Position numbers and translations under genes: made by a program
Notes under the pieces: model-generated
Seen by the model: the letters and a program-made list of their open reading frames with translations, nothing else
Told to the model about the DNA's origin: nothing
The model's database searches: none
Shown: positions 1-60,172 of the stretch, piece after piece
Numbering within the stretch: the stretch's first letter is position 1
How the letters are laid out: each line of letters begins with the position of its first letter
Assembly: GCA_032622095.1 (NCBI GenBank)
Contig: CP136062.1
Location: 13,169,710-13,233,709 of the forward strand
Direction: 5' to 3'
Length of the DNA stretch: 64,000 bases
Source of the DNA: Siphonodentalium dalli
Taxonomy: Eukaryota; Mollusca; Scaphopoda; Gadilida; Siphonodentaliidae

Positions 1-316
1 ACATATTGTAACTCACTTGTGTTGAACATATTGTAACTCACCTGTGGTGAACATATTATAACACAACTGTGTTGAACATATTATAACACACCTGTGTTGA
101 ACATATTGCAACTCACCTGTGTTGAACATATTGTAACTCACCTTTGTTGAACATATTGTAACTCACCTGTGGTGAACATATTATAACACACCTGTGTTGA
201 ACATATTGTAACTCACCTGTGGTGAACATATTATAACACACCTGTGTTGGTCATATTATAATACACCTGTATTGGACATATTATAACACACCTGTGTTGG
301 ACATATTATAACACAC
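1..316. repeat. 25-bp minisatellite seeded on an SLC23 splice donor
   Basis: About 13 tandem copies of a 25-bp unit built on acatattgtaactcacctgt plus gttga. Read on the minus strand, the transporter's strand, each unit carries CACAG followed by GTGTGTTA or GTGAGTTA. The first unit overlaps the end of the exon at 317-590, whose last bases are GACACAG. The array therefore starts at the exon-intron junction and repeats the donor in every unit. It runs off the left edge of the window, so its full length is unknown. Confidence 0.92.
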
Positions 317-590
317 CTGTGTCGATTGATGATTCGTTCTTTTCGACCCACTGCGGCACCATCAAACCAAATATCAATGCACACCCTAAAACCGTTAGGT
401 TACGAGCAGACTCCAGGTTCGTAAACTTTAGTGTCGATATCCCAACAGATGCGAGAATTCCAAACACAATCGATAAAGTGCCACCTATAACCGGCTCCGG
501 AATAAGGGAGAGTACCGCGCCAAACTTGCCGATAACCCCGCACACAATCATTATAAATCCGGCGGTGATGAACACTGCTCGACTAGCAAC
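317..590 (-). CDS. SLC23-like: SLC23-family transporter, internal exon (TM9-TM11 region)
   Basis: This 274-bp exon encodes about 91 residues of a nucleobase/ascorbate transporter, a plasma-membrane carrier of the NAT/NCS2 fold. It reads VASRAVFITAGFIMIVCGVI, then GKFGAVLSLIPEPVIGG, FGILASVGISTLKF and SARNLTVLGCALIFGLMVPQ. The Pro-x-Pro-Val-Ile-Gly-Gly loop and Ser-Arg-Asn-Leu are family hallmarks. The acceptor is ttgttttcag (591-600) and the donor is ACAG|GTGTGT (316-315). It starts in phase 0, directly continuing the exon at 14628-14881 (AVTK|VASR), and ends in phase 1. The C-terminal exon or exons, with the final helices and cytosolic tail, lie beyond position 1. Family assignment is firm; whether the substrate is ascorbate or a nucleobase cannot be told. 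Confidence 0.95.
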
Positions 591-8141: not shown

Positions 8142-9195
8142 ACTGTCATACCTTAGATATACCACCGCATATATACTGCCTGCAACACCGTAGATATACA
8201 ACTCCGTATATAGTGCCACACCTTAGATATACCACCCCATGTATACTGCCACACGTTAGATATACCACCCCATATATACTGCCACACCTTAGATTTACCA
8301 CCCCATATATACTGCCACACCTTAGATATACCACCCCATATATACTGCCACACCTTAGATATACCACCCGATATATAGAGTGCCACACCTTCTATAAACC
8401 ACCCTATATATACTGCCACACCTTAGATATACAACCCCATATAATGACACACCTTAGATATACCACCCCATATATACTGCCAAACCTTAGATATACAACC
8501 CCATGTATATATACTGCCACACCGTAGATATACAACCACATATATATATATATATACTGCCACACCTTTGGTATACCACCCCATATATACTGCCACACAT
8601 AATATATACCAACCCATATACTGCCACACCATAGATATACAACTCCGTATATAGAGTGCCACACCTTAGATATACCACCCCATATATACTACCACAACTT
8701 AGATATACCACCCCATATATACTACCACACCTTATATATACCACCCCATGTATACTGCAACACCGTAGATATACAACTCCGTATATACTGCCACACCTTA
8801 GATATACCACCCCATATATACTGCCGCACGTTAGATATACCACCCCATATATACTGCCACATCTTAGATTTACCACCCCATATATAGAGTGCCCCACCTT
8901 AGATATACCACTCCATATATACTGCCACACCTTATATATACCACCCTATATACTGCCACACCTTATATATACAACTCCGTATATACTGCCACACCTTAGA
9001 TATGCCACCCCATGTATATATACTGCCACACCTTAGCTATACCACCCAATATATACTGCCACACCTTAGATATACCACTCCATATATACTGCCACACCTT
9101 AGATATTCCACCCCATATATATATACTGCCACACCTTAGATATACCACCCCATATATACTGCCACACCATAGATATACCACTCCGTATATAGACA
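8142..9195. repeat. 33-bp minisatellite, segment 3 of 3
   Basis: About 31 tandem copies of the 33-bp unit seen at 633-786, with small length variants (extra tata or gag). Because 33 is a multiple of three, the array produces long ORFs of up to 147 codons rich in Tyr, Ile and Pro or in Val, Tyr and Leu on both strands. These are repeat artefacts, not genes. Confidence 0.95.
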
Positions 9196-9924: not shown

Positions 9925-12900
9925 TTAGAGGGACATATACAACCCAATGTTTATGTATTACTGTATGAGATGGAGACATCAAGACCAATGTTGATGTATT
10001 ACTCTGTGTATGTATTACTGTGTGACAGGAATCATAAACCCCAATGTCTATGTATTACTGTGTGAGATGGTGGCCAACACCCAAATGTTTATGTATTACC
10101 GTGTGAGAGGGAGACATAAACCCCATTTTTATGTATTACTGTGTGGGTGGGAGAAATAACCCCAAATGTGTATGTGTTACTGCATGAAATGGGGACATAA
10201 ACCCCAATGTTTATGTATTACTATGAGAGGGGAGACATAAAACCCAATGTTTATGTATTAATGTGAGAGAGGGAGACATAAACTTGAAGGTTTATGTATT
10301 ACTGTGAGACAGGGAGACATAAACCCCAATATGTATGTATTACTGTATGAGATGGAGACATAAACCCAATGTTTATTTATTACTGTATGAGGGAGACATA
10401 AAACCCAATGTGTATGTATTACTATGAGAGGGGAGACATAAAACCCAATGTTTATGTATTAATGTGAGAGAGGGAGACATAAACTTGAAGGTTTATGTAT
10501 TACTGTGAGACAGGGAGACATAAACCCCAATATGTATGTATTACTGTATGAGATGGAGACATAAACCCAATGTTTATTTATTACTGTATGAGGGAGACAT
10601 AAACCCAATGTTTATTTATTACTGTATGAGGGAGACATAAAATCCAATGTGTGTGTATTACTGTACGAGAGAGACATAAACCCCAATATGTATGTATTAC
10701 TGTGTGAGATGGAGACATAAACCCAATGTTTATGCATTACTGTATGAGGGAGACATAAAATCCAATGTGTGTGTATTACTGTACGAGGGAGACATAAACC
10801 CCAATGTGTGTGTATAACTGTGAGACAGGGAGACATAAACCCCAATATGTATGTATTACTGTATGAGGGAGACATAAACCCCAATGTGTGTGTATAACTG
10901 TGAGACAGGGAGACATAAACCCCAATATGTATGTATTACTGTATGAGATGGAGACATAAACCCAATGTTTATGCATTACTGTATGAGGGAGACATAAAAT
11001 CCAATGTGTGTGTATTACTGTATGAGGGAGACATAAACCCCAATGTGTGTGTATTACTGTGAGACAGGGAGACATAAACCCCAATATGTATGTATTACTG
11101 TACGAGATGGAGACATAAACCCAATATGTATGCATTACTGTATGAGGGAGACATAAAATCCAATGTTTATGCATTACTGTATGAGGGAGACATAAACCCC
11201 AATGTGTATGTATTACTGTGAGACAGGGAGACATAAACCCCAATATGTATGTATTACTGTACGAGATGGAGACATAAACCCAATATGTATGCATTACTGT
11301 ATGAGGGAGACATAAAATCCAATGTTTATGCATTACTGTATGAGGGAGACATAAACCCCAATGTGTATGTATTACTGTACGAGATGGAGACATAAACCCA
11401 ATATGTATGCATTACTGTATTTGGGAGACATAAAATCCAATGTTTATGCATTACTGTATGAGGGAGACATAAACCCCAATATGTATGTATTACTGTATGA
11501 GATGGAGACATAAACCCAATGTTTATGCATTACTGTATGAGGGAGACATAAAATCCAATGTGTATGCATTACTGTGAGACAGGGAGACATAAACCCCAAT
11601 GTGTGTGTATTACTGTGAGACAGGGAGACATAAACCCCAATATGTATGCATTACTGTATGAGGGAGACATAAAATCCAATGTGTGTGTATTACTGTGAGA
11701 CAGGGAGACATAAACCCCAATATGTATGCATTACTGTATGAGATGGAGACATAAACCCAATGTTTATGCATTACTGTATGAGGGAGACATAAAATCCAAT
11801 GTGTGTGTATTACTGTGAGACAGGGAGACATAAACCCCAATATGTATGCATTACTGTATGAGGGAGACATAAACCCCAATGTGTGTGTATTACTGTGAGA
11901 CAGGGAGACATAAACCCCAATATGTATGTATTACTGTATGAGATGGAGACATAAACCCAATGTTTATTTATTACTGTATGAGGGAGACATAAAATCCAAT
12001 GTGTGTGTATTACTGTACGAGGGAGACATAAACCCCAATATGTATGTATTACTGTGTGAGATGGAGACATAAACCCCAATATGTATGCATTACTGTGAGA
12101 CAGGGAGACATAAACCCCAATATGTATGTATTACTGTACGAGATGGAGACATAAACCCAATATGTATGCATTACTGTATGAGGGAGACATAAACCCCAAT
12201 ATGTATGTATTACTGTGAGACAGGGAGACATAAACCCCAATATGTATGTATTACTGTACGAGATGGAGACATAAACCCAATATGTATGCATTACTGTATG
12301 AGGGAGACATAAAATCCAATGTTTATGCATTACTGTATGAGGGAGACATAAACCCCAATGTGTATGTATTACTGTACGAGATGGAGACATAAACCCAATA
12401 TGTATGCATTACTGTATGAGGGAGACATAAAATCCAATGTGTATGCATTACTGTACAAGGGAGACATAAACCCCAATGTGTGTGTATTACTGTGAGACAG
12501 GGAGACATAAACCCCAATATGTATGTATTACTGTATGAGATGGAGACATAAACCCAATGTTTATGCATTACTGTATGAGGGAGACATAAAATCCAATATG
12601 TATGCATTACTGTATGAGGGAGACATAAACCCCAATATGTATGTATTACTGTGAGACAGGGAGACATAAACCCCAATGTGTGTGTATTACTGTGAGACAG
12701 GGAGACATAAACCCCAATATGTATGCATTACTGTATGAGGGAGACATAAACCCCAATGTGTGTGTATTACTGTGAGACAGGGAGACATAAACCCCAATAT
12801 GTATGTATTACTGTATGAGATGGAGACATAAACCCAATGTTTATGAGGGAGACATAAAATCCAATGTGTGTGTATTACTGTGAGACAGGGAGACATAAAC

Positions 12901-14440
12901 CCCAATATGTATGCATTACTGTATGAGGGAGACATAAAATCCAATGTGTATGTATTACTGTGAGACAGGGAGACATAAACCCCAATATGTATGCATTACT
13001 GTATGAGGGAGACATAAAATCCAATGTTTATGCATTACTGTATGAGTGAGACATAAACCCCAATGTGTATGCATTACTGTATGAGGGAGACATAAAATCC
13101 AATATGTGTGTATTACTGTGAGACAGGGAGACATAAACCCCAATATGTGTGCATTACTGTATGAGGGGGACATAAAATCCAATGTTTATGCATTACTGTA
13201 TGAGGGAGACATAAAATCCAATATGTGTGTATTACTGTGAGACAGGGAGACATAAACCCCAATGTGTATGCATTACTGTATGAGGGAGACATAAAATCCA
13301 ATATGTGTGTATTACTGTGAGACAGGGAGACATAAACCCCAATATGTGTGCATTACTGTATGAGGGAGACATAAAATCCAATGTTTATGCATTACTGTAT
13401 GAGGGAGACATAAAATCCAATGTGTATGCATTACTGTATGAGGGAGACATAAAATCCAATGTGTGTGTATTACTGTACGAGGGAGACATAAACCCCAATA
13501 TGTATGCATTACTGTATGAGGGAGACATAAAATCCAATGTGTGTGTATTACTGTGAGACAGGGAGACATAAACCCCAATATGTATGTATTACTGTATGAG
13601 ATGGAGACATAAACCCAGTGTTTATGCATTACTGTATGAGGGAGACATAAACCCCAATGTGTGTGTATTAATGTGAGAGAGGGAGACATAAACCCCAATG
13701 TGTGTGTATTACTGTGAGACAGGGAGACATAAACCCCAATATGTATGTATTACTGTATGAGATGGAGACATAAACCCAATGTTTATGCATTACTGTATGA
13801 GGGAGACATAAACCCCAATGTGTGTGTATTACTGTGAGACAGGGAGACATAAACCCCAATGTGTGTGTATTACTGTGAGACAGGGAGACATAAACCCCAA
13901 TATGTATGCATTACTGTATGAGGGAGACATAAAATCCAATGTGTGTGTATTACTGTGAGACAGGGAGACATAAACCCCAATATGTATGTATTACTGTATG
14001 AGATGGAGACATAAACCCAATGTTTATGCATTACTGTATGAGGGAGACATAAACCCCAATGTGTGTGTATTAATGTGAGAGAGGGAGACATAAACCCCAA
14101 TGTGTGTGTATTACTGTGAGACAGGGAGACATAAACCCCAATATGTATGTATTACTGTATGAGATGGAGACATAAACCCAATGTTTATGCATTACTGTAT
14201 GAGGGAGACATAAAATCCAATGTGTGTGTATTACTGTGAGACAGGGAGACATAAACCCCAATATGTATGTATTACTGTATGAGATGGAGACATAAACCCA
14301 ATGTTTATTTATTACTGTATGAGGGAGACATAAAACCCAATGTGTATGTATTACCGTATGAGAGAGACATAAACCCCAATGTGTATGTATTACCGTATGA
14401 GAGAGACATAAACCCCAATGTTTATGAATTACCGTATGAG
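9925..14440. repeat. 40-bp satellite array with three-unit higher-order pattern
   Basis: About 110 tandem units of 39-41 bp, with the core ggagacataaaccccaatgt followed by a tattact spacer. Three unit types recur in order: a 41-bp type starting gtgagacaggg, a 40-bp type starting gtatgagatgg with gtttatgcat, and a 39-bp type starting gtatgaggg with aaatccaatgt. Together they form a 120-bp higher-order unit, clearest from about 12,500 to 14,300; the left part is more degenerate. Long minus-strand ORFs (up to 205 codons with phrases like HTHWGLCLP) arise because 120 is divisible by three. The array ends about 190 bp from the donor of exon 14628-14881. Confidence 0.95.
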
Positions 14441-14627: not shown

Positions 14628-14881
14628 CTTGGTAACGGCAATCTCTCCGATGTTTCCGCTGTATGAAGTCGTTCCGTGACCGGCTCCCACTAAACCGGAT
14701 ATGATGCTTCCGAAACCCTCCATGGCGATTCCTCTATTTATAGCGTGGGACGGTGGCGGTGGTGCTCCTGCGATTCTTGCGCATGCGTAGTAGTCACCAA
14801 CAGATTCTACTACTGATGCGATGGTGGCAGCCAACATTGCAACATAGCTAGCGGCTGACACGGTTGGTACACCAAACTGAA
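14628..14881 (-). CDS. SLC23-like: SLC23-family transporter, core exon with NAT signature
   Basis: This 254-bp exon is the most diagnostic part of the gene. It encodes [14 protein letters not shown], then [38 protein letters not shown] and [10 protein letters not shown]. The Glu of ESVGDYYA is the TM8 substrate-site residue of the family. GAPPPPxHAINRGI is nearly invariant in animal SLC23 proteins. The NAT signature (normally Q, E or P before NxGxxxxTR/K) is present, but its first residue is Gly. The acceptor is gctttcag|TTCAG, in phase 2, completing a codon with the T left by the previous exon. The donor is ACCAAG|GTACCT in phase 0. The following intron of 14 kb is almost wholly repeats. Confidence 0.97.
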
Positions 14882-14929: not shown

Positions 14930-15445
14930 CAAAATACTAATGTGACTAATTGTTAATGCGATTTAGTACCAATGCGACTAATAACTAACATGACTAATTA
15001 ATAACATGATTGCATGATTTCTAATTTGACTAATGAATAATTGCTAATGTGACTAAGTGATAATGTGACGAACCACTAATGTGTTTAATTATTAATGTGA
15101 CTAATTACTAATATGAATAATTACTAATCTGACTGAATACTAATTTGACTAATTGCTAATTTGACTAATTGATTATGTCATCAATTACTATTATGGCGAA
15201 TTACTAATGTGACTAATTACTAATGTCACTAATTACTAACGCAATTTATTATTAATGTAACTAATCTCTAATGTTACTAATTGATAATGTGTCTACTTAA
15301 CAATGTGGTTAATTACTACTGTAACTAATAAATAATGGGATTAGTTACTAATGTGACGATTTACTAATGTGACTAATTACTAATGTGACGATTTACTGAT
15401 GGAATTAATTACTAATGTGACGATTTACAAATGTGATTGGTGACA
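14930..15445. repeat. About 16-bp minisatellite beside a splice donor
   Basis: Some 30 degenerate copies of aattactaatgtgact fill almost all of the 576-bp intron between exons 15458-15614 and 14628-14881. On the minus strand the array begins about 12 bases after the GTAAGT donor. The unit is noisier than in the other arrays, suggesting age. Confidence 0.88.
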
Positions 15446-15457
15446 AATAGAACTTAC

Positions 15458-15614
15458 ACGGGTATGGGAAGTAGAACCATGGCGCACTGTCTAGAGCTCC
15501 GAGATTCGCATCAGTACGCGCCCGGTAACCCACATCAGTAGAATTCGATGGGAATGTGTCTGTCTCTGTTAGTATGAATGACAACAACCACGCAATTCCG
15601 ATGCTGAACAAAAT
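15458..15614 (-). CDS. SLC23-like: SLC23-family transporter, exon (loop before the core exon)
   Basis: A 157-bp exon encoding ILFSIGIAWLLSFILTETD, then TFPSN, GYRARTD and APWFYFPYP. The TxTDxxP motif, the Y-x-ARTD motif and APWxxxPYP occupy the same place and order as in vertebrate SLC23A1 and A2. It forms a membrane helix followed by an extracellular loop. The acceptor is catccacag|ATTTTG. The donor is CCGT|GTAAGT, leaving one base that joins TT of the next exon to make Phe ([13 protein letters not shown]). This phase fit selects GTAAGT over the overlapping GTGTAAG. Confidence 0.93.
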
Positions 15615-21689: not shown

Positions 21690-22243
21690 ACTGGATTATC
21701 ATGAGCAACAAGCAGCATAGTAAATTATCAAGTCCCACCAACAACATAGCAAAATATTAGGACCAACCATCAGGATAGCAAATAATTAGAACCAACCGAC
21801 AACATAGCAAATAATCAGGAGCCATCAACACCATATCAAATTACCAGGACCCACCAACATAATATCAAATTACCAGGACCCACAAACACCATTTCAAATT
21901 ACCAGGACCCACCAACATCATATCAAATTACCAGGACTCACCAACATTATATCAAATTACCAGGACCCACCAACACCATAGTAATTATTAGGAACAACCA
22001 ACATCATACAACATTATTATGACCCATCAACATCATAGTAATTATGAGGACCCACCAACATCATATCAAATTACCAGGACCCACCAACATCATAGTAATT
22101 ATTAGGAACAACCAACATCGTAGAAAATTATCATGACCAATCAACATCATAGTAATTATGAGGACCCACCAACATCATATCAAATGCCCAGGACCCACAA
22201 CATCATAGCAACTATGAGGACCAACCAACATCATAGTAATTGT
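21690..22243. repeat. 29-31-bp minisatellite beside a splice donor
   Basis: About 18 copies of phrases such as caggacccaccaacatcata followed by tcaaattac or gtaattatta. On minus, the array starts directly after the third copy of the exon donor segment (22248) and shares the text aattactatgatgttgg with the bases following that donor. Confidence 0.92.
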
Positions 22244-22380
22244 ACTTACAGGTAACCTCTGCAGTACATCGTACCACGTCACGATGCCGTACATATGAAC
22301 GTAATGTAATTGTACTTACAGGTAACAGGTCTGTGGTAATGGGAACCAGGTCACGCTACAGTACATATGCACATAAATTA
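22244..22380 (-). repeat. Two extra copies of the exon-end and splice-donor segment
   Basis: On minus, the last roughly 34 bases of exon 22397-22517 plus about 40 intron bases are present three times in tandem. The donor junctions are at 22397/22396 (the real exon), 22320/22319 and 22250/22249. Each reads TTACCT|GTAAGTACAATTAC, preceded by a GTGAC-TGGT and CAGA pattern. Spacings are 77 and 70 bp. The extra copies lie in the intron and lack the rest of the exon. They could act as decoy or alternative donors, but their use is unproven. Confidence 0.88.
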
Positions 22381-22396
22381 ATGTAATTGTACTTAC

Positions 22397-22517
22397 AGGT
22401 AACGTCTGCAGTAGTGGGTACCATGTCACGTGACATCCCTCATCTCTTGAGTAGACAGGTATAGGGACTTTCACTTTATTTAGATACAAGGAGAATATCA
22501 AGAGCAACACTGCCGTT
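22397..22517 (-). CDS. SLC23-like: SLC23-family transporter, exon (TM6-TM7 region)
   Basis: A 121-bp exon encoding TAVLLLIFSLYLNKVKVPIP, then VYSRDEGCHVTWYPLLQTLP. The order of helix, xxFSxYL, VPxPVY and a short basic loop ending before the next helix matches SLC23 proteins. The acceptor is ttgtttcag|AACGGC. The single A completes a codon begun by CT of exon 26211-26392. The donor is TTACCT|GTAAGT in phase 0, so LP joins ILFSIG of the next exon as in the family. Two tandem copies of its 3' end follow in the intron. Confidence 0.9.
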
Positions 22518-25500: not shown

Positions 25501-25799
25501 GGATCGATGAAAATTGGCCCATTGTTGTATTGTTGTGGGCGAAAACGGTGTAGCTCTGCCAAGTGTTTACATTTCACAGTTTGCCAATTCTCAGAGGTTC
25601 GCACTCACGATATAACAATTATGAAGGGTTTCGTACGCACACTATGGCTCACTCTAGTGCTTCGTAGTCACACATTTGTTTTATCTCGTAGTATCGTGGG
25701 GTACATGGACATCTGAAGTATGGAACAGATCAGCGCCCCATTTGGTTTAAAATTTCACTATAGTAACATTGCACATAGATTGTGTGATATGTGTCACAT
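22518..25799. other. Sparse intron sequence
   Basis: No gene is recognised. Visible items are a poly-G run at about 24206, an A-rich low-complexity block at 24975-25190, and a direct repeat of about 60 bp (gaattcttattgtcgtgaat and flanks) at 24850-24895 and 25430-25490. ORFs of 60-95 codons here show no family motif. Confidence 0.6.
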
Positions 25800-26210
25800 T
25801 GTTCATTATTCACAATATCGCCTTTCTCAATGCTTCGTAATCAGATTATCGCCATTCCTCAGTGTTTCGTACTCATAATATCACCATTCCTCCGTGTTCG
25901 TACTCTCTAGTGTTTCGTATTCACAATGTGCCGTTCCCCAGTGTTCCATACTCACAATATGACAATTCTCCAATGTTTCGTACTCATAATATCACCATTC
26001 ATCAGTGTTTCGTACTCACAATATCGCAATTCCCTAGTGTTTCATACTCACAATGTGGCAATGCGTCAGTGTTTCGTACTCACAATGTTCCCTACCCAAA
26101 TCGTTCATACTCACATAATGGCCATTACACAGTGTTTCGTACTCACATTTTGACCATTACACCGTGTTTCATACTCACAATATGACCATTCCCCAGTGTT
26201 TCGTACTCAC
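25800..26210. repeat. 32-bp minisatellite made of exon end plus splice donor
   Basis: About 12 copies of a 32-bp unit. On minus, each has GTGAGTACGAAACACTGGGG followed by AATGGTCATATT. The last 24 bases of exon 26211-26392 (GAAACACTGGGGAATGGCCA and TACT) plus the donor GTGAGTAC make exactly one unit. The array thus extends the exon-intron junction into the intron with a donor-like GTGAGT in most units. Units farther from the exon are more diverged. Confidence 0.92.
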
Positions 26211-26392
26211 AGTATGGCCATTCCCCAGTGTTTCTCGTTAAATAAGTTAGCGACGCTGGTCAGTGAGAGACCGATGAGGGATATTGTCGGCGCGATCGTT
26301 AGAGGCCCTACGAACTGTAGTATGAACCCCAGGACGCCCGTCATTCCGAGCACCAGCTGTGTCAGCGATGCCAGTATAAGTGACCCTTGAAT
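26211..26392 (-). CDS. SLC23-like: SLC23-family transporter, exon (TM4-TM5 region)
   Basis: A 182-bp exon encoding IQGSLILASLTQLVLGMTGV, then LGFILQFVGPLTIAPTISLI, GLSLTSVANLFNEKHWGMAI. The IQG start, the GPLTxxPTxSLIGLS signature and HWG near the end are strongly conserved in SLC23 members. The acceptor is ccattcacag|ATTCAA in phase 0, joining LE of exon 28710-28756. The donor is ATACT|GTGAGT in phase 2, matched by the single-base start of exon 22397-22517. Its final 24 bases are the template of the neighbouring 32-bp array. Confidence 0.95.
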
Positions 26393-28709: not shown

Positions 28710-28756
28710 CTCTAGCATTCTGGTTTCCCAGGCATCGTCGGCTTCTGCTGGATCAT
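28710..28756 (-). CDS. SLC23-like: SLC23-family transporter, 47-bp micro-exon
   Basis: A very short exon encoding DPAEADDAWETRMLE. It is the variable extracellular loop that ends just before the IQGxxxxxS helix; WxxRMxE-IQG matches the family pattern at this place. The acceptor is ttggcatttcag|ATGATC and the donor is CTAGAG|GTTGGT. It starts with two bases completing a codon begun by G of exon 35990-36078 and ends in phase 0. Support comes from phase compatibility on both sides and the tryptophan-arginine motif. Its size makes it easy for gene finders to miss. Confidence 0.8.
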
Positions 28757-35989: not shown

Positions 35990-36078
35990 CTTTAGATGGG
36001 CATCGTAAATGTTTAATTGTCATTATTGATATCAAAGCTGGCATGAATGTGTGGGATCCACCCTGGATGATCGGTAAC
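35990..36078 (-). CDS. SLC23-like: SLC23-family transporter, exon (TM3 region)
   Basis: An 89-bp exon encoding LPIIQGGSHTFMPALISIM then TIKHLRCPSK. LPxxQGxSxxFxxP is the conserved third-helix segment of SLC23 proteins, and the basic-Cys-Pro tail follows it in homologues. The acceptor is atatcttacccacag|G and the donor is CTAAAG|GTTTGT. The first G completes CG of exon 43930-44087 to Arg (GVR-LPII); the last G joins AT of exon 28710-28756 to Asp. The exon lies beside retroelement and Helitron debris and has no ORF large enough to attract notice. A tandem copy of its start lies upstream. Confidence 0.9.
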
Positions 36079-36165
36079 CTGTGGGTAAGATATAAACTTG
36101 ATGCATATCAAAGCTGGCAGGAAAGTGGGGGATCCACCCTGGATGACCAGTAACCTGCACTGGTA
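36079..36165 (-). pseudogene. Tandem partial duplicate of the acceptor and start of exon 35990-36078
   Basis: On minus, a roughly 76-bp unit is repeated directly upstream of the exon: branch and acceptor text tttatatcttacc-nn-CAG, then G and about 50 coding bases. The duplicate starts at 36154 and reads LLVIQGGSPTFLPALI in the same phase, with substitutions at three or four residues. It runs without a stop into the next acceptor region but has no GT donor. It could be a dead half-exon, or could be included through a retained stretch. Confidence 0.8.
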
Positions 36166-36302
36166 AGATATAAACACGATGGACATAACATTATAGTGTA
36201 TGCTGTATCAATATGATGTTTGCAAACTTTACATAAAACTCACTAATGATGTCAATCCCTACCTAAATGCATGATATTCTCCCTGGATGAATCATGTTAA
36301 TA

Positions 36303-42688: not shown

Positions 42689-42734
42689 TATATATATATA
42701 TATATTTGTGTGTTTGTGTGTGTGTGTCTGCGCA

Positions 42735-43220
42735 TAATGTTAAACTCGCCCAACGGCCTCTCCATACAATTAAAATCGCCTATCGGCCTCTCCATAATGT
42801 TAAAATCGCCCAACGTCCACTCAATACAGTTAAAATCGCCTATCGGTCTCTCCATAATGTTAAAATCGCCCAACGGCCTCTCCATACAGTTAAAATCGCC
42901 TATCGGTCTCTCCATAATGTTAAAATCGCCAATCGGCCTCTCCATACAGTTAAAATCGCCTATCGGTCTCTCCATAATGTTAAAATCGCCCAACGACCTC
43001 TCCGTGCAGTTAAAATCGTCTATCGGTCTCTCCATAATGTTAAAATCGCCTATCGGCCTCTCCATACTGTTAAAATCGCCTATCGGTCTCTCCATAATGT
43101 TAAAATCGCCCAACGGCCTCTCCATACAGTTAAAATCGCCTATCGGTCTCTCCATAATGTTAAAATCGCCTATCGGCCTCTCCATACAGTTAAAATCGCA
43201 TATCGTCCTCTCCATAATGT
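42735..43220. repeat. 60-bp tandem array (two 30-bp half-units)
   Basis: Eight copies of a 60-bp unit consisting of two related halves, each near taaaatcgcctatcggtctc plus tccataatgt. As 60 is divisible by three, frames on both strands stay open, giving ORFs of 306, 251 and 195 codons of simple 20-residue repeats (for example LKSPIGLSIM). The repeat explains them. The interval 43221-43495 after it is unannotated intron sequence. Confidence 0.95.
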
Positions 43221-43929: not shown

Positions 43930-44087
43930 CGCACACCAATAACATCCTGAAGAACGGTGACGACTCCGCACATGAAGAGCGTTATACTGAGAAGCTTGGC
44001 TCGGACGTCCTCTCTGTCGTCGACACATATAATGCCGACGATAATGTATGGTATAGATATGATGCTGCCGATACACATAACAGCTTG
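43930..44087 (-). CDS. SLC23-like: SLC23-family transporter, exon (TM1-TM2 region)
   Basis: A 158-bp exon encoding QQAVMCIGSIISIPYIIVGI, then ICVDDREDVRAKLLSITLFM, CGVVTVLQDVIGV. The layout of half-helix, IPxIIxxxxC, an acidic loop, LxxxxFxxCGxxTxLQ and GVR follows the N-terminal repeat of SLC23 proteins. The TM1 motif normally reads Gln-His; here it is Gln-Gln. The acceptor is gtttcatttcag|CAAGC and the donor is GTGCG|GTAAGT. It starts in phase 0 and ends in phase 2, matching exon 35990-36078. The preceding exon with the initiator Met was not found in the window. Confidence 0.9.
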
Positions 44088-45459: not shown

Positions 45460-45544
45460 CATAGACAATAGTTAACTGTTCTTAGGGGAGTATGGTTTTT
45501 CTCCTCGAGTCTCTTATATCGTCATTTGATGGCTCCCATTGTCA

Positions 45545-46420
45545 GAACCCCATCTCGCGTTTATTGATAGCCAGATGATTTGTCCTGTACTGAGGTAATC
45601 GTGAGTGCACAGATCCCCATCTCGCGTTTATTGATCGCCAGATGAATTGTCCTGTACTGAGGTAATCGTGAGTGCACAGATCCCCATCTCGCGTTTATTG
45701 GTAGCCAGATGAATTGTCCTGTACTGAGGTAATCGTGAGTGCACAGATCCCCATCTCGCGTTTATTGGTAGCCAGATGAATTGTCCTGTACTGAGGTAAT
45801 CGTGAGTGCACAGATCCCCATCTCGCGTTTATTGATCGCCAGATGAATTGTCCGGTACTGAGGTAATCGTGAGTGCCCAGATCCCCATCTCGCGTTTATT
45901 GGTAGCCAGATGAATTGTCCTGTACTGAGGTAATCGTGAGTGCACAGATCCCCATATCGCGTTTATTGATAGCCAGATGAATTGTCCTGTACTGAGGTAA
46001 TCGTGAGTGCACAGAACCCCATCTCGCGTTTATTGATAGCCAGATGAATTGTCCTGTACTGAGGTAATCGTGAGTGCACAGATCCCCATATCGCGTTTAT
46101 TGATAGCCAGATGAATTGTCCTGTACTGAGGTAATCGTGAGTGCACAGAACCCCATCTCGCGTTTATTGGTAGCCAGATGAATTGTCCTGTACTGAGGTA
46201 ATCGTGAGTGCACAGATCCCCATCTCGCGTTTATTGATAGCCAGATGAATTGTCCTGTACTGAGGTAATCGTGAGTGCACAGATCCCCATCTCGCGTTTA
46301 TTGATAGCCAGATGAATTGTCCTGTACTGAGGTAATCGTCAGTGCACAGATGCCCATCTCGCGTTTATTGATAGCCAGATGAATTGTCCTGTACTGAGGT
46401 GCTCATGAGTGCACAGGGCC
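45545..46420. repeat. 67-bp minisatellite, 13 copies
   Basis: Highly homogeneous 67-bp units containing ccccatctcgcgtttattga, agccagatgaattgtcctgt and gaggtaatcgtgagtgcaca. Most differences are single bases (gatag, gatcg or ggtag). Such homogeneity suggests recent expansion or conversion. No exon was found at either border. From 46421 to 46917 I see no feature. Confidence 0.95.
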
Positions 46421-46917
46421 ACATCTCAGAATATTACAAGTGTTATAAAAAGAGATGAAATGAAGGGATTTTCCATTGTTTTAGTAATGTTAACACTAGA
46501 TTATACTATGATTACAAAGACAAAAGTATTCTGGCATGTTCGTATAATTTTATCCATAGACATTTTTAAGATGGGATAATGTTAATACTGTCTGATTTCG
46601 GTTTGTATGTGAACCGGAGAATATAGTAATCTACTAAATCCGGCCTATGGCTAGTATAAACAATCATATTTTCCTGAAACATGACACTGAGTCGTGACTG
46701 ACACATTGACAGTGTTGTAACTTTCGAAAGGATAGGACCCATCTCAAGTTCCACCAGAGTATAAACTCACCAGAATAATTAACAAGCAATTTGTTGTTAA
46801 TTAATAGAGACTAGTACATGACAACAACAATAACAACATAGAACGTTTACTCGAAATTGGTTGATGTGTCGATATTCTCACAGTCCAGTCATATTAATAA
46901 ATTTCCAACAAAATATG

Positions 46918-59730: not shown

Positions 59731-59866
59731 TATGACAACCAATTGTCACCAAACTCCACCATAATAAATTGTCACACCTACTATGCCATCGCTACTGTGG
59801 TGCGTGTGTCCGCAGCCAAAATCGATGGACGCCAATGAAATACCTGAATGCTCTGTTTTGAACCAT

Positions 59867-60172
59867 GTCTATACAAGGGTATGTTCTGTATCCCCAGACA
59901 CCAGATCTATACAAGGGTATGTTCTGTATCCACAGGAACCATGTCTATACAAGGGTATGTTCTGTATCCCCAGACACCAGATCTATACAAGGGTATGTTC
60001 TGTATCCACAGGAACCATGTCTATACAAGGGTATGTTCTGTATCCACAGGAACCATGTCTATACAAGGGTATGTTCTGTATCCCCAGACACCAGATCTAT
60101 ACAAGGGTATGTTCTGTATCCACAGGAACCATGTCTATACAAGGGTATGTTCTGTATCCCCAGACACCAGAT
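59867..60172. repeat. 38-bp minisatellite at the end of a LINE
   Basis: Eight copies of tctatacaagggtatgttct plus gtatcc and one of two tails (ccagacaccaga or acaggaaccatg). On minus, the LINE frame runs directly into the array (GVWGYRTYPC near its right edge), so the array was built on the LINE coding end or inserted exactly there. Confidence 0.92.

Follow-up and report, generated by a model that had tools for sequence, protein, structure and literature searches.

How does a tandem repeat come to lie across the boundary between a coding exon and its intron, and what becomes of splicing when each repeat unit carries a splice donor? The question is raised by a 64,000-nucleotide stretch of the genome of the scaphopod mollusc Siphonodentalium dalli (assembly GCA_032622095.1, contig CP136062.1, positions 13,169,710 to 13,233,709; hereafter the window, with positions counted from its first letter), in which a 32-bp minisatellite runs from the end of an SLC23 transporter exon into the following intron. 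The array is likely to be a "mirage"-type minisatellite, produced by duplication of the junction, amplification, and decay, with intronic copies that are mostly passive and splicing that uses the exon-proximal donor.

A repeat unit spanning the junction

The array lies on the minus strand, where Tandem Repeats Finder (TRF) reports a period of 32 bp at 25909–26234 and at 25810–25905. The original prediction, made from the sequence of this junction, was that one unit consists of 24 exon bases plus the 8-base donor; wrap-around alignment bears this out, with the end of exon C (exon letters as in Table 1) and GTGAGTAC together forming unit 1. About 12 intronic units had been expected to follow, and 13 contiguous ones were found, of which one, at 25916, is truncated. 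Upstream of 26234, comparison by eye gave no match to the unit end, and thus the duplicated segment begins at that position. A decayed island of the same repeat lies beyond the range first described (25800–26392); it scores 98, as against a maximum of 28 among 1500 control stretches of the window, and the approximately 130 bp separating it from the end of the contiguous array at 25806 are without similarity to the unit (score 14; control mean 14.8). The 18-base core TGTGAGTAYGAAACACTG, allowing up to two mismatches, occurs 10 times in the 64 kb, and all 10 occurrences are inside the array (shuffled sequences gave a mean of 0.01).

Between the exon unit and the intronic consensus there are 2 differences in 32 positions, and units of the array differ from one another by about 22% on average. 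Minus-strand units 26011–25980 and 25899–25869 both possess ATGAGTAC and are separated by a distance of just 0.06 despite lying around 3.5 units apart, which is a sign of block duplication inside the array. A single inserted base in unit 25663 was omitted from the unit alignment.

The host gene

By homology, the host gene is a mollusc member of SLC23, the vitamin C/nucleobase (nucleobase-ascorbate) transporter family. A set of 33 SLC23 proteins, drawn from 195 candidates (E ≤ 0.001) and molluscan wherever the source is named, served as tblastn queries, after which exon boundaries were inspected. Eight exons were located in the window, all eight preceded by AG and followed by GT, and joining them via their exon-proximal donors yields an uninterrupted frame of 427 residues. 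The N-terminal exon is missing from this model, as is the 3′ part of the gene; the first coding exon (YGVEDxP) was looked for in the window and not found. Among the best 120 of 1362 matches, the ten best share 60%–63% identity with the model over 99%–100% (E down to 9.6e-179), the top-scoring ones with a named source are molluscs, and the top-ranked lancelets reach 47%–48%. Identity to aligned molluscs is 53%–64%, and relatives of the model contain PF00860. The exon C stretch itself matches the SLC23A1 structures 7ytw (E 5.7e-11) and 8jew (E 8.1e-11).

At the donor of exon C the sequence reads ACT/GTGAGTAC, and the join to exon D, ...HWGMAI-L-TAVL, is consistent with SLC23 homologues. Within an alignment of 23 sequences (model included) that spans molluscs to coral and placozoan, the W and G of the HWG at the end of exon C are invariant, and the full HWG is present in 18. 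Because it is coding and conserved, the exon copy is probably the constrained and ancestral source of the repeat, in keeping with what had been proposed for it.

Divergence along the array

A further expectation was that divergence would rise with distance from the exon, the exon copy marking the direction of growth. The nearest intronic unit, at 3/32 differences from the exon unit, is indeed the closest full-length copy. Among the remaining full-length contiguous units, differences run from 4/32 to 9/31 in no order, and the truncated unit, left out of the tree and of some trend tests, shows 0/17. Rank correlation between difference from the exon unit and position was 0.13 (p 0.33) for the 13 contiguous units and 0.28 (p 0.19) with the truncated unit dropped; addition of the island raised this to 0.36 (p 0.09, 16 units) or 0.43 (p 0.053, 15 units without the truncated one). 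In a maximum-likelihood tree, which is poorly resolved (node support at most 78), exon-to-unit distance correlated with position at rho 0.18 (p 0.57) among 12 contiguous units and at 0.47 (p 0.08) when 15 units were used. Whether measured to the exon unit, to the consensus, or in the tree, no gradient was found in the contiguous array, and with the island the trend was borderline (p 0.05–0.10). Thus, among full-length copies the exon end is closest to its immediate neighbour, and the island shows somewhat more divergence; within the contiguous array, however, divergence does not follow position, and the predicted gradient and direction of growth are not borne out there.

Mean distance between units is also flat with separation, being 0.22 at lag 1, 0.19–0.26 at lags 2–10, and 0.32 and 0.26 at lags 11 and 12, for which pairs are few. 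Flat distances and a poorly resolved tree are what an old burst would be expected to leave. The array is therefore better described as an old burst followed by independent decay than as demonstrated outward growth from the exon.

Other duplicated junctions in the gene

The original prediction named one junction; three further junctions of the same gene are duplicated. Copies of the exon edge, each with a local score of at least 50, are present at three of eight donors (C, D, and G) and one of eight acceptors (B). The units span real junctions in every case, with exons set by homology and frame: 24 + 8 bases at C, 9 + 16 at G, the donors at D, and the acceptor at B. Intronic head-to-tail copies number 13 contiguous at C, 12 at G (to the window edge), two at D, and only one at B. 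In the D array, aligned by eye, all three copies share the same 21 bases around the donor, whereas they differ in the exon-derived part. In the G array, two forms of the donor hexamer are common, GTGTGT and GTGAGT, of which the latter pairs better with U1; CAGGTGAGT, present in four of the 12 intronic copies, is stronger as a donor than the authentic CAGGTGTGT. The outer copy of the exon B acceptor possesses its own AG, use of which would add 76 bases and shift the frame.

A 16-bp array at 15034–15436 begins around 20 bp past the donor of exon E (15457). Inspection by eye showed no part of the exon in this array, which was therefore excluded from the count of duplicated junctions.

A model for the origin of the array

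It is suggested that a single tandem duplication of the exon–intron junction, comprising 24 exon and 8 intron bases, placed a second exon end and donor within the intron, and that slippage or unequal exchange then raised the number of unit copies to around 14–18. These copies would since have decayed, mostly independently. The exon copy would be held by coding and splicing constraint, the intronic copies being mostly passive, and splicing would remain at the exon-proximal donor; because that donor is still used, the protein would be unchanged. Similar events may have occurred at the three other duplicated junctions of this SLC23 gene, the introns of which are rich in minisatellites.

Fidelity to the original sites is important, given what lies beyond them. 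Read-through past the authentic donor meets an in-frame stop at all three duplicated donors (HWGMAIL-stop at C, ...QTCYL-stop at D, and IDTGVL-stop at G), and the copied acceptor of exon B is out of frame. Misuse of the original sites would thus, as judged from the reading frames, in most cases yield truncated products. At exon D the stop coincides with the second donor copy, and the products of the second and third copies were therefore not separated.

Are the intronic donors passive?

Several observations weigh against a history of pure neglect. Change rates are heterogeneous among columns of the unit (chi-square 90, 31 degrees of freedom, p 1e-7, an optimistic value given that units are non-independent), with 57/223 changes in columns 9–23, 12/126 in columns 1–8 (GAAACACT), and 8/93 in the donor hexamer (columns 25–30). 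The hexamer is the clearest position effect. GTGAGT is unchanged in the six intronic units closest to the exon (0/36 vs 31/155 for other columns; Fisher p 0.0017), and this holds when only distinct derived states are counted (0/18 possible vs 22/78, p 0.010) and when differences from C are pooled with those of D (0/48 vs 42/209, p 0.0001), although the D differences were counted by hand and the pooled value should be taken accordingly. Over the whole array, 8/93 hexamer positions are changed versus 77/396 elsewhere (p 0.014). Hexamer decay grows with distance from the exon (rho 0.64, p 0.005, 16 rows; 0.81, p 0.001, 12 rows), whereas the other columns show no clear trend (0.29, p 0.14; −0.02, p 0.53, in the same row sets). 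Among the 32 cyclic six-column windows, those starting at columns 24–26 take the first three ranks in both row sets (15 and 12 rows).

The position of the repeats bears on the same issue. One-sided edge copies with a score of at least 40 occur at 5% of intron positions versus 4 of 16 junctions (p 0.007–0.009), and seeding along the gene may therefore be non-random. The one-sided measure was, however, picked after a first test had shown no excess, and at a score of at least 24 the intron rate is 11%–12% and the excess at junctions is weaker. When any nearby repeat is taken as the null, the same 4/16 (25%) is no higher than the 24%–33% of intron positions with a copy within 200 bp (24% of 6000 sampled positions at a score of at least 40), and with a reach of 1.5 kb the figure for intron positions is 33%–45%, again with no junction excess. 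Enrichment at junctions is hence suggestive and dependent on the chosen null.

The alternative that best survives these data is that proximal copies are retained by selection as decoy donors, serving as U1 landing sites (for exon definition or protection of a long intron) or as stop-adding alternative donors that lower transporter output. The pattern of hexamer conservation and its decay with distance are what such decoys would show, as is the identical donor block of the D array. In addition, the pairing of many intronic copies with U1 equals or exceeds that of the authentic donor (8 of 16 copies at C, both copies at D, and 9 of 12 at G), as judged by RNAduplex energies that were not forced into splice register. 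At C, 12 of the 16 intronic copies retain the GT. Decoys are nevertheless unlikely. The units are non-independent, the sample amounts to one array plus three copies, and the cut at six proximal units was set post hoc, with the data already seen. Over the seven units that follow, the hexamer and the other columns change equally often (6/40 vs 24/166), and in the island the hexamer stands at 2/17 versus 22/75. Columns 1–8 are about equally conserved and have a weaker distance trend of their own (0.40, p 0.06, 16 rows; 0.30, p 0.17, 12 rows), yet they lie outside the donor. The two common hexamer forms at G also sit poorly with decoys, as does the folding of the array RNA, which is no better than that of shuffled sequences (z +1.29) and on account of which a structural role for the RNA was rejected. 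A broader proposal, in which the proximal donors form a preserved row of U1-binding or stop-adding decoys, the number of copies adjusts splicing or transporter output, and the exon ends of mollusc genes acquire such rows time and again, must be considered improbable.

It is very doubtful that an ordinary intronic minisatellite, having arisen elsewhere, reached the exon edge by chance. These introns are full of minisatellites, and given the 24%–33% of sampled positions (depending on score threshold) with a nearby copy, a count of 4 junctions out of 16 lying in repeats would not stand out on its own. The repeat, however, covers 24 coding bases including the invariant WG codons, which an overwriting sequence would have had to encode, and the window holds no further copy of the core. 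An assembly artefact, in which a repeat has been collapsed or expanded, is a negligible prospect. Draft assemblies do misjudge the copy number of tandem repeats, but C units that differ by some 22% are not assembler-made copies, and it is only in the G array, which is more uniform, that copy number is open to this error.

Features and other repeats of the window

Coordinates are collected in Table 1. Five further large minisatellites sit in and upstream of the exons found, at 10005–14440, 8142–9191, 42733–43220, 45543–46427, and 59861–60172, with units of 41, 33, 30, 67, and 38 bp, respectively; the 67-bp array has 95% matches according to TRF.

Table 1. Repeat arrays and SLC23 exons located in the window, with the evidence for each.
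Feature	Coordinates	Strand	Evidence
Unit 1 of the C array: 24 exon bases + GTGAGTAC	26203..26234	-	Authentic donor at 26210
13 contiguous intronic units, ~32 bp each (unit at 25916 truncated)	25806..26202	-	TRF, wrap-around alignment
Decayed distal island of the 32-bp repeat: 3 readable units plus fragments	25559..25674	-	Wrap-around alignment, control scores
Exon A, first exon found in the window	43930..44087	-	tblastn, boundaries
Exon B	35990..36078	-	tblastn, boundaries
Exon B2, 47 bp	28710..28756	-	Weak tblastn match (best E 0.031), frame, acceptor/donor
Exon C, 182 bp, start phase 0, end phase 2; final 24 bases are the exon share of unit 1	26211..26392	-	tblastn, boundaries, frame, 7ytw/8jew
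Exon D, donor region also duplicated	22397..22517	-	tblastn, boundaries
Exon E	15458..15614	-	tblastn, boundaries
Exon F	14628..14881	-	tblastn, boundaries
Exon G	317..590	-	tblastn, boundaries
D array: exon D end + donor CCT/GTAAGTACAATTAC, three tandem copies; donors 22396, 22319, 22249	22216..22441	-	Alignment
G array, 25 bp: final 9 exon G bases + 16 intron bases; 13 units including the exon unit, to the window edge	1..325	-	TRF (1-322), unit/donor inspection
Duplicated acceptor: intron end + first part of exon B, 2 copies ~76 bp apart	36029..36190	-	TRF, alignment, frame

Comparison with known junction repeats

Among the closest known relatives of this array are those of amphioxus, the report on Adh3 being reportedly that of Canestro et al. 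2002. Parts of a later account describe "mirages" in the Adh3 and globin genes as minisatellite-like tandem repeats that cross exon–intron boundaries on either side, apparently leave splicing undisturbed, are unstable in length, and are proposed as a route to new introns (PMC3087553). A section of another paper adds troponin C, along with imperfect repeats of a similar kind in PGBD5 (PMC3902484). Normal splicing is reported for comparable lancelet genes in the relevant portions of both (PMC3087553, PMC3902484), which counts in favour of the passive, exon-proximal account preferred here. The scaphopod array resembles these cases (Adh3, BflGb6/BflGb9, troponin C, and PGBD5, as far as those portions describe them) in being a tandem repeat that spans a junction. 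It differs in belonging to a mollusc SLC23 gene, in the diverged and old-looking state of the C array, and in being known from the DNA of one haplotype.

A second relative is the variable number of tandem repeats (VNTR) of the human CBS gene, which, going by the title of a 2001 report by Lievers, has reportedly been linked to reduced CBS activity. Downstream donors are used in human CBS. The VNTR, c.1444_1467+7(16_21), is described in an excerpted part of PMC2630376 as polymorphic, with 16–21 units that are invariably 31 bp long and carry substitutions between units. By that notation each unit holds 24 exon and 7 intron bases, almost the same anatomy as the 24 + 8 of the C array. The same part of PMC2630376 describes CBS 844ins68, a duplicated intron/exon junction in which one of two competing splice sites is strongly favoured; unlike the C array it is a single 68-bp duplication, and its nearest analogue here is the two-copy acceptor of exon B. 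Human genes in segmental duplications, according to passages of PMC2812944, contain minisatellites with units of around 30 bp that can lie at exon–intron boundaries and change splicing. Half of those repeats lie in coding exons, and those at boundaries can form novel introns, whereas the coding sequence here keeps one copy.

Open-licence literature searched by title, with molluscs covered via bivalves only, yielded no report of junction-spanning repeats in molluscs. On the strength of its unit anatomy, the present case matches the known mirage- and CBS-type junction repeats, to which four duplicated junctions in one mollusc gene would be an addition. Their number suggests that such repeats occur more widely among animals with repeat-rich genomes, beyond lancelets and human, and junction minisatellites may offer a way to rows of splice sites in competition. 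With one constrained copy in the array to serve as a reference, it also becomes possible to ask which part of a unit selection keeps; here, from the sequence, the nearest donor copies look preserved, in an array whose closest counterparts are those of amphioxus Adh3 and human CBS.
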